A stretch of 58,503 nt of DNA, from NCBI RefSeq assembly GCF_000739655.1, contig NZ_BATR01000005.1, forward strand, positions 1-58,503, read 5' to 3'. The first letter of the stretch is position 1; each line of letters opens with the position of its first letter. Origin of the DNA: Verrucomicrobium sp. BvORR106 (GTDB lineage Bacteria > Verrucomicrobiota > Verrucomicrobiia > Verrucomicrobiales > Verrucomicrobiaceae). The translations under genes and the position numbers were made by a program. Of the stretch, positions 2,181-7,921 are shown one piece after another. The notes under the pieces were generated by a model. It was not told where the DNA came from. It did not search any database and saw only the letters and a list, made by a program, of their open reading frames with translations.

Positions 2181-2444
2181 CTGTCGCGTATCCAGACTGA
2201 CGGGAGATTGATGTCTGAAACTGACCCGTATTGATGAGCACCGGGCAGACATCGCCTGCGGGGGACTACATATCCCTTATCGGAGCAGTGCGTTTTGGAA
2301 GTGGAATACGCCAGCGTCCTGCACGTGGAGGACCCAAGCCTGTCGAAGCTTGGTGATACGGCGAGGGGGCGAAGCTTGCAGACGCTTCAGTGAGTGCCTG
2401 CCAAGGAATCTATGTCGTGAAGCACAGACTGACAGGCCTCAAAA

Positions 2445-3024
2445 TGGCCTGTGCTTGGGGAGCTCGGGGAGCGCACGCATCCTGCGTGCTGTTTGCGGCA
2501 TCTTGCCGCGAACGTCAGTCAGCTTGTGGCATCGGGAGGGGCTACCCAACATTCATGCAACATCACATTCGAGCGACATGGAGGTGTTGAAGGTGGTGGG
2601 AGGAAAAGCGCATGCTGTCGGCCTTCCCACCTGAGTAGCATCTTCGGATGGCACCCAACGTAGACTCGCTGGAAGCTCGTCAACGTTGGGCTTGTAGCCT
2701 CATCCTCTTCGAGGAAGAGCTTCGACTGAGGACGTGGGAACCGACTCTGGCTCAGCCCTCGGTAAGTCCCCTCAGAGGATTTGGGCCTGAAAGGCCCAGA
2801 GAGCCCAGCCCAGGGGCAAAGGCCACGAAGTGGACGGAGACCCTGGGTACCTCCAACGAGGATGATCAGGTGGGAAGGCCGACAGCATCCGCTATCGGCC
2901 CATTTTCATCAACACCTCCACGTCGGTGGGAACTGATGTCATGCGCTGACTGACGTTTGCGGCAAGATGCCGCAAACAGCACGCAGGAATGCGTGCACTC
3001 CCCGAGCTTCCCAGGCACAGGCCA
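2445..3024. repeat. Long imperfect inverted repeat in gene-free region 2181-3098
   Basis: The left arm (about 2445-2643) is the imperfect reverse complement of the right arm (about 2861-3024), with a central segment at 2644-2860. The outermost roughly 75 bases of each arm match almost perfectly and themselves contain small palindromes such as GCGGCATCTTGCCGC. An inner block around 2578-2635 pairs with 2861-2930. The arms differ in length, so indels have accumulated. Open frames across it are by-products of the repeat and show no protein-like composition. I see nothing recognisable in 2181-2444. A copy of part of the right arm lies at 54753-54803. Confidence 0.8.
2783..2848 (+). repeat. 66-bp structured dispersed repeat, copy 1
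   Basis: It sits in the centre of the long palindrome and matches 47005-47070 at about 60 of 66 positions. It can fold into three stems: GGGCCT-GAA-AGGCCC, an outer CCCAGGG/CCCTGGG pair, and CCAC-GAA-GTGG inside that. The differing base in the first stem keeps pairing (A-U here, G-U in the other copy). It may be a mobile intergenic RNA-like element; function unknown. Confidence 0.7.
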
Positions 3025-3098
3025 CTCTGAGAAACGGGGCACAACAAGGCATTGGCACTTCTTGTTCGACCAGTAGATTCAGGATCCCTGCCCTACCC

Positions 3099-3803
3099 AT
3101 GATCGCCACCTTCATCCTGGTTGACTACAACAACGCCCCGCCTGCCCGAATTTCCGAGTTGGCGAAGTCCCAGCACAAGGTTCTTGTCTTCCTGGGACAC
3201 AATCAAGACACCGTATCTCTGGAACTGGCAACCGCCCTCCAGGTGCTTGGGAAGAATGGCGAATATGTCCAAGCCCCGGGGGATGGGCCGCAGGCCCTCG
3301 ATCTCCACATCGCGTACTACATGGGCAAGATCGCGTGCGACAATCCCCATGCCTGCATCCATGTCGTCTCCAATAACCCGCGGTTCGATCCCTTGATCCA
3401 ACACCTCAGGAAGACTCATCAAGCTGCCGTATCTCGCAGCGACAGTCTGGATGCCGTGATCTCTGCACAAACTCTTGTCCCACTCCCGCTCGAACAGTTC
3501 CTCGCAACCGTCGAGAATTGGTTGAGCAGTCCATCTTATCACGGCCCCCGCACCCTGCCCAAGCTGCACAACGGTCTGAAGTCCTTTCTGCCCAAGTCCG
3601 TCACCAAAGCAGAACGTCAGCTCATTATCACAGCACTGCGAGAGCGGGGGCACTATGTCATTGAGGGAAACAAACTCTTGTGGCCCAAGGCCGCAACCTT
3701 CCCCGTCAAGCGTCCCATCACGCCATCCAGACAGGAACGGCACGAAGAACCGCAAGCCCCCAAAACAGGGCAGAGCTGGGATGACGACGATATTCCGTTT
3801 TGA
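3099..3803 (+). CDS. PIN-like nuclease candidate with winged-helix-like domain and SSB-type C-terminal tip
   Basis: A 234-aa product. Residues 1-125 resemble a PIN/NYN-fold ribonuclease domain: FILVDYNN with Asp9 in strand 1, VLVFLG strand 2, ALDLHIAYY with Asp68, and HVVSNNPRFDPL with Asp97. These are the usual places for metal-binding acids. Residues about 150-195 (LPKLHNGLKSF to GNKLLWP) look like a small winged-helix or LOTUS/OST-HTH-type module. A Pro/Gln/charged linker (196-225) follows. The last residues, SWDDDDIPF, end in the same six residues (DDDIPF) as E. coli single-stranded DNA-binding protein. The ATG at 3099 starts exactly at the domain; the upstream open frame is repeat-derived. 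The gene appears monocistronic. Nuclease activity and partner binding are inferred. Confidence 0.8.
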   Translation: MIATFILVDYNNAPPARISELAKSQHKVLVFLGHNQDTVSLELATALQVLGKNGEYVQAPGDGPQALDLHIAYYMGKIACDNPHACIHVVSNNPRFDPLIQHLRKTHQAAVSRSDSLDAVISAQTLVPLPLEQFLATVENWLSSPSYHGPRTLPKLHNGLKSFLPKSVTKAERQLIITALRERGHYVIEGNKLLWPKAATFPVKRPITPSRQERHEEPQAPKTGQSWDDDDIPF

Positions 3804-7064: not shown

Positions 7065-7195
7065 GGAAGGCGCAGGGCGGAATCTCCACGGGTACTCGCC
7101 TCATCCCCGGGTAACAGACGACCAAACCGGTCCTGCGGCTCGCGTCTTCAGTCTTGAGTCTTCCCGCTGACTGGGCAGTGTGCCCTACTCTCCCC

Positions 7196-7921
7196 ATGCC
7201 CAGCCCTGCCTCCGATCTCATCAAAGCCGCTCGCGACCTCAGCCGCAAACTGGCTCCGCTCAAGTTTGGCGAGCCCGTCACGCACGTGTACAACCCCCTG
7301 GAATACGCCGCCGCTCCCCACGAGCAGTACCTCACCCGTTACGGGCGTGCCGGGCAGCAGATCATGTTTCTGGGCATGAATCCCGGGCCTTACGGCATGA
7401 CTCAGACGGGCGTCCCCTTTGGGGAGATCCCCGCCGTCCGGGACTGGCTGGGTATTTCCAGCCCCGTCGGCAAGCCGCCTGTGGAGAATCCGAAGCGTCC
7501 CGTGGTGGGCTTTGACTGCCCGCAGAGCGAGGTCAGCGGGAGGCGTCTCTGGGGTCTCTTCGCCGCCAAATTCGGCACCCCCGATGCCTTCTTTGACCGG
7601 CACTTCGTCGCCAACTACTGCCCCCTGGTTTTCATGGAAGAAGGGGGCAAAAATCGCACGCCTGACAAGCTGCCTGCTCCCGAGATGGCCGCGCTCTACG
7701 CCGCCTGTGACGAGCATCTCCAGAGGGCGGTGACCGCCCTCCAGCCGGAGTGGGTCATCGGGGTGGGTGGCTTCGCCGAAGGCCGCGCCCTCCTGCTGAA
7801 AGCAAAGTTTCCTGACCTCAAGATCGGACGCGTCCTGCACCCCAGCCCCGCCAGTCCCGCCGCCAACAAAGACTGGGCAGGGAATGTGACGAAGACTATG
7901 GAAAACCTGGGATTATGGTAA
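7196..7921 (+). CDS. SMUG1-type uracil-DNA glycosylase
   Basis: A 241-aa DNA repair enzyme predicted to excise uracil and related lesions from DNA. The active-site motif 1 of the SMUG1 family is intact: GMNPGPYGMTQTGVPFGE around residues 60-77, with Asn62 in the catalytic position. Motif 2, HPSPASP, is near the C-terminus with its conserved His. Length is close to that of animal SMUG1 proteins. The ATG at 7196 was chosen because the few codons of frame before it lack family character and run through a low-complexity stretch at 7141-7165. No repair partners lie next to it. Confidence 0.9.
   Translation: MPSPASDLIKAARDLSRKLAPLKFGEPVTHVYNPLEYAAAPHEQYLTRYGRAGQQIMFLGMNPGPYGMTQTGVPFGEIPAVRDWLGISSPVGKPPVENPKRPVVGFDCPQSEVSGRRLWGLFAAKFGTPDAFFDRHFVANYCPLVFMEEGGKNRTPDKLPAPEMAALYAACDEHLQRAVTALQPEWVIGVGGFAEGRALLLKAKFPDLKIGRVLHPSPASPAANKDWAGNVTKTMENLGLW

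Follow-up and report, generated by a model that had tools for sequence, protein, structure and literature searches.

The locus raises the question whether a bacterial protein other than SSB can carry, at its own C-terminus, the short peptide by which SSB is recognised, and what such a protein would do with it. The C-terminal tip of SSB is the docking peptide by which SSB calls in repair enzymes. In the window, the 58,503-nucleotide stretch of Verrucomicrobium sp. BvORR106 DNA that was analysed, an open reading frame at 3099..3803 on the forward strand translates into 234 residues ending in SWDDDDIPF, as an earlier sequence-only reading had given it. Translation, Pfam, the predicted structure and purifying selection in three species support a coding sequence made up of a PIN7 domain, a winged helix, a linker and an SSB-type tip. 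On balance, and narrowly, we favour the reading that this PIN-NYN and winged-helix protein carries a working SSB tip, gained within the genus, with which it would dock on SSB-interacting proteins.

The N-terminal part is a member of the PIN7 family. PF18475 matched residues 7-105 (3117..3413, + strand) at 80.7 bits, over its cut-off of 34, which confirms the PIN/NYN-type domain proposed earlier, and the similarity of its fold to the MARF1 NYN domain and to VPA0982 (2qip) points the same way. The NYN profile matched under its own cut-off. PF00436, the OB-fold of SSB, gave no Pfam match to E 1 and a PIN fold was found instead, so that the protein is not an SSB; NCBIfam likewise returned no match to E 1. 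The predicted structure (mean pLDDT 80.7, pTM 0.55, from a shallow alignment of 11 rows) showed an alpha/beta fold from residue 1 to about 125, followed by helices and a beta pair in winged-helix order at residues 131-195 (3489..3683, + strand). The small winged-helix module that had been suggested is thus present in the model; it is conserved in the family and its sequence is rich in basic residues. With the whole protein as query, Pfam listed no OST-HTH/LOTUS row to E 1, the winged-helix order being that of the predicted helices and strands. From residue 201 on, the ten-residue mean pLDDT was 45-53 and the tail was predicted to be disordered and undocked, in agreement with the flexible linker of the sequence-only reading; a buried tail, which that reading had named as evidence against itself, did not appear in this prediction from a shallow alignment. 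Comparison with solved structures by Foldseek gave nothing at E ≤ 0.001, the first row (1.1e-3) being an unrelated-looking human protein and the second 2qip (2.5e-3). Re-alignment of the 1000 Foldseek-ranked chains by VIA-align placed MARF1 first, with Z 12.1 for its NYN domain from both mouse (rmsd 3.6 over 121 residues) and human (rmsd 3.1 over 119 residues), and VPA0982, 2qip, next (Z 10.2); apparently unrelated folds set in at Z 8.3, and there was no LOTUS row among the matches listed. Sequence searches of solved structures yielded nothing useful.

The tip itself, WDDDDIPF, occupies residues 227-234 (3777..3800, + strand), as read from the translation and supported by a genome-wide pattern search and by its invariance in three species. 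For the search we used the pattern GAYGANRWNHTNCCNTTYTRR, which encodes in degenerate form the residues D-[DE]-[DENKIMV]-[ILMF]-P-F followed by a stop, and whose last codon is also fitted by TGG. In the 8.69-Mb genome of the organism it fitted three places, compared with none for the reversed control, and the reverse complement gave identical places. The first is ssb (PF00436, 3e-35), the second a DUF669 protein (1.8e-10) with a match (9.2e-12) to phrog_378, a phage family of single-strand DNA binding proteins, and the third the PIN7 gene. A tip by chance can be ruled out, given three places in 8.69 Mb, two of them in ssDNA-binding proteins, and a reversed control of zero. Among the congeners, the pattern fell on ssb, the PIN7 gene and one place reading TGG in G001, on ssb and the PIN7 gene in G003, and on ssb only in G002, an assembly that is 76% complete.

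Order-wide, 146 of 189 genomes matched the pattern, the reversed control giving 17 places among the matches listed. Also among the matches listed, 113 distinct places with tip plus stop were read after TGG endings had been dropped and duplicates merged. These places are not a random sample: 60 stretches came from genomes chosen for at least two matches and the rest were returned loci. When compared with one or two query sequences per class, 65 were SSB-like, 24 DUF3127-like, three phage-SSB-like, three the PIN7 protein and 18 others. Nine of these 18 were frames of at most 68 residues, mostly likely to be chance or cut at a contig end, which shows that such ends do arise accidentally; the nine longer ones include unknowns, a pair of related HTH-type proteins, one PF12843 member and one protein whose GemA match is below the cut-off. 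Within this survey, the tip is a strong marker of proteins that bind ssDNA and of related ones, but a few other proteins carry it too.

Some of these carriers deserve mention in their own right. The two HTH proteins, L118 (24-881, - strand) and L122, come from two genomes in a different family of the order and end in MDDEIPF; L118 showed weak PHROG matches to repressors. The PF12843 protein of L192 (1186-1518, + strand; 2.9e-19) is not an SSB and ends in RDDDLPF, and the frame of L185 (1504-2106, - strand), with its sub-threshold match to GemA of Mu, ends in KDDNIPF. The DUF3127-like proteins with an SSB tip, L136 and 23 further places of the 113 (PF11325 being Pfam-confirmed for L136 alone), may represent a second SSB-like protein for some members of the order.

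Whether the tip is maintained could be judged from the congeners. At the same locus, the G001 protein ends in PSWDDDNIPF and that of G003 in SDWDDDDIPF, so the tip is kept in both congeners in which the gene was found, while the 76% complete G002 gave no gene match. Residues invariant in all three species numbered 85 of 112 in the PIN part (14-125), 44 of 65 at 131-195, 6 of 31 in the linker and 7 of 8 in the tip; the difference between tip and linker is significant in these three species (Fisher p = 0.0007). Pairwise omega followed the same course, with 0.25-0.29 for residues 14-110, 0.24-0.37 for 111-145, 0.13-0.34 for 146-195 and 0.59-0.82 for the linker at 196-225; the tip (226-234) gave 0.09-0.42, a range that rests on few sites, and the whole protein 0.29-0.38. 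The linker, residues 196-226 (3684..3776, + strand), is thus predicted to be disordered and drifts in a near-neutral manner by omega, invariant-site count and pLDDT. Two neighbouring genes gave omega values of 0.07-0.18; judged by these values, the constraint on the PIN7 gene is real and weaker than on the two neighbours. Sequence and predicted structure together provide what an SSB-Ct ligand calls for, namely acidic residues, a hydrophobic residue followed by P-F, a free C-terminus and a flexible linker. Because the tip is kept while the linker drifts nearly freely, it is probably a functional SSB-Ct ligand. The SSB-Ct-type tip of the sequence-only reading therefore stands, now with constraint in three species behind it.

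Outside the genus the picture is different. The protein query matched 26 of 115 genomes, the own genome included (three of four in the genus, G002 being the miss); PF18475 matched 36 of 286 genomes of the class, 28 of them over the cut-off, and a profile of 16 homologues matched 34 of 387 genomes of the phylum. One hundred loci were taken, from genome searches, two contig loci, three of 39 plasmid records and nine viral contigs. An ORF was obtained from 97 of them (none from L063, L064 and L236), leaving 75 distinct homologues once the own copy and duplicates had been removed. The tip was present in two, both of them congeners, and absent from all 73 outside the genus, although the ends of L061 and L230 tell little, these being short or broken frames. 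Relatives without the tip, which the sequence-only reading had named as evidence against itself, thus do occur outside the genus, whereas the two syntenic orthologues keep it. Tipless homologues were also obtained from 12 genomes that represent other genera within the family; these are 23-29% identical, and synteny was established for the congeners only. On this distribution, the tip is a genus-level addition to an uncharacterised family.

Two routes by which it might have been added were considered. The last 21 bases, from the final D-D-D through the stop, are identical to those of the ssb gene of the same genome. Capture from ssb by recombination is nevertheless not supported: the flanks differ, the congener pairs are non-identical, and the fixed residues limit codon choice. 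A viral or plasmid origin is likewise unsupported. A search of 50,697 phage records gave no match to E 0.01, a viral scan with the single protein query found none, PADLOC gave no model match to E 1 and PHROG none to E 0.1; 39 plasmid records match the protein, and the three that were read, as well as the proteins of the nine viral contigs with homologues, lack the tip. As a separate observation, contigs G550:C61 and G618:C74 each hold a full match to the PIN7 profile with separate winged-helix-only matches nearby, which suggests duplicated winged helices.

The state of the active site bears directly on what the tip would deliver. In the alignment of the 75 homologues, counting those with a letter at the position, D9 was found in 71 of 71, E11 in 71 of 72 (one Q), D68 in 75 of 75, D93 in 74 of 74 and D97 in 70 of 74. 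Judging from the motif and from what is known of PIN/NYN domains, D9, E11, D68 and D93 would form the PIN metal site. The window copy does not hold all four of these family-wide acids: D9, D68 and D97 are kept, and codons 11 (3129..3131, + strand) and 93 (3375..3377, + strand) both read AAC, for Asn. The catalytic list of Asp9, Asp68 and Asp97 drawn up earlier was correct in that all three are present, and it omitted E11 and D93, precisely the positions that are altered in the window copy. The G003 copy has all four acids intact, with E11 and D93 present. In G001, a short C run at about codon 13 is one base shorter, changing the frame, and neither D9 nor E11 lies in the tip-bearing frame, which starts beyond them; this may reflect an error in the assembly. 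Because two near-invariant acids are replaced by Asn, a working nuclease in the window species is doubtful, and catalysis there is probably weak or lost. Of the earlier claim of a nuclease, the PIN domain remains and the activity is in doubt, on account of the two Asn and of the G001 frame change.

In the reading we favour, the tip, borne on a flexible linker, would dock in the SSB-Ct pockets of SSB-interacting proteins. The partners would include RecO, which is encoded here (RecO_C matched over its cut-off in three of three genomes searched, the match covering profile positions 2-65 of 157 only), with PriA, RecJ, DnaG and others likely. The protein would then be brought to, or compete at, the ssDNA and fork sites where these partners act. 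A chain with a single tip and a probably RNA-binding body could be recruited to forks or gaps, deliver the partners to RNA, or dilute the partners of SSB. In the ancestral form, as in G003, the body was probably an RNase of the PIN/NYN kind, which the tip would bring to sites of DNA transactions; in the window species the active site is probably impaired or inactive, which would leave an adaptor or competitor. Published work on SSB offers points of comparison. For E. coli, peptides are reported to bind four SSB partners via the tip alone at any linker length, RecO being the strongest binder of the four tested (PMC7145534). The last Phe and the Pro are described as important in SSB, and the linker as a spacer of minimal length without fixed sequence (PMC10164576); the pattern seen here, a tip that is kept on a linker that drifts, fits this behaviour. 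The same E. coli study describes further RecO contacts of whole SSB beyond the tip (PMC7145534), which the PIN7 protein would lack and which we count against docking. So do we count the restriction to three species, the few sites behind the omega of the tip, the accidental tip-like ends among the short frames, a selection weaker than on the neighbours and a neighbourhood that indicates no pathway; moreover, G001 being out of frame near the start, the gene may be dispensable.

Other explanations share much of this evidence. If the PIN domain still cut RNA or DNA and the tip sent it to forks, the protein would be an active, tip-recruited nuclease. The PIN7 match over cut-off, the retention of D9, D68 and D97 and the four intact acids of the G003 copy are what such an enzyme would require, and the nearest fold, the NYN domain of MARF1, is described as an endoribonuclease whose silencing of a tethered reporter mRNA is impaired when Asp426 and Asp427 are altered (PMC6294520). 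We nevertheless consider this unlikely, since N11 and N93 stand where homologues have E in 71 of 72 and D in 74 of 74, and since the frame changes at about codon 13 in G001. A variant of the favoured reading, possible but doubtful, retains the fold, the winged helix and the tip with catalysis lost altogether, and makes the protein a cellular SSB-Ct mimic that would compete with SSB for RecO, PriA or RecJ or bring them to RNA or R-loops bound by the winged helix.

Altered active sites in two of three copies, together with selection weaker than on the neighbours, could also be read as the decay of a gene whose tip is a relic, acquired once in the ancestor of the genus and now without function. 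This seems improbable to us in view of the omega values of the PIN part (0.25-0.29, in this case residues 14-110) and of residues 146-195 (0.13-0.34), the conservation of the tip next to a drifting linker, and the conservation of the promoter-like site upstream. That site, TTGGCA-16-TAGATT (3052..3079, + strand), resembles a sigma-70 promoter by consensus match alone (one found, 0.3 expected) and by congener alignment, being identical in both congeners. Finally, the acidic tip might fold back on the basic winged helix or the PIN groove of its own chain and be displaced by nucleic acid, in an autoregulatory manner. The SSB tip binds the winged helix of RecQ, and the winged helix here has many basic residues. 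By analogy, SSB tips are also reported to bind unoccupied SSB DNA-binding domains (PMC7145534). An autoregulatory tail is distinctly unlikely, however: it leaves unexplained why the exact SSB consensus, including the C-terminal P-F, is kept, and the tail is undocked in the predicted structure, a weak point given the 11-row alignment.

Each half of the protein has known relatives. With the PIN7 family it shares the domain, the body length, the C-terminal winged helix and the G-x-x-A-L-D and S-x-D motifs; it differs in its tip, the 73 homologues outside the genus being tipless (at least two of them broken frames), and in the two replaced acids of the window copy. With the LK-nuclease (DUF88) and OST-HTH/LOTUS proteins it shares a PIN/NYN-type domain followed by a winged helix, and 2qip, among its nearest folds, is the DUF88 structure of the LK-nuclease paper, which describes the bacterial LK-nuclease and OST-HTH proteins as possible stand-alone RNA-degrading enzymes without conserved neighbourhoods (PMC2848206); unlike these, the window protein, searched whole, gave no Pfam match to OST-HTH or NYN over cut-off, and it possesses an SSB tip. 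The SSB-Ct itself has the same acidic residues before I-P-F at the very C-terminus and the same disordered linker, whereas the window tip sits on a PIN fold with no PF00436 match. DdrB of Deinococcus, for which a purported SSB-like motif is reported to be dispensable for radioresistance (PMC3834827), differs in that DdrB itself binds ssDNA. PIN/NYN proteins with a winged helix are known and so is the SSB tip; searches of an open-access library showed neither a combination of the two nor a nuclease that itself carries an SSB tip, although an engineered PriB-SSBc chimera does appear there. SSB organises bacterial genome maintenance via one short peptide, and a cellular protein other than SSB that ends in this peptide would naturally compete in this hub or serve there as an additional recruiter, and would lend itself to testing how partners distinguish tips. 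Tip borrowing is perhaps wider, as hinted by the few other non-SSB proteins of the order that end in the tip, which would make the tip an inexpensive query for finding unknown participants in DNA metabolism.

The gene neighbourhood, in the window and in both congeners, indicates no single repair pathway. Upstream lie genes that, as a reading of the frames, are queG-like and glycosyltransferase-like. Directly upstream of the promoter-like site, window positions 2438-3031 form an imperfect palindrome of about 600 bases with nested arms that are 81-91% complementary. In the locus alignment a similar stretch is present in G001, and most of the palindrome was not seen in G003. It is a member of a dispersed repeat, for which at least 127 matches within the genome were obtained from the 40 candidates scored out of 195; as matches occur on both strands and in pieces, copies are fewer than matches. 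Downstream, a DUF6807 gene, a Ser/Thr-kinase-like gene and a UDG-like gene follow in an order common to the window, G001 and G003, with additional small frames in G003; Pfam was run for the DUF6807 and UDG genes of the window only. The last of these, at window positions 7154-7921, encodes a UDG-superfamily glycosylase (PF03167), and similar frames occupy the same place in both congeners.
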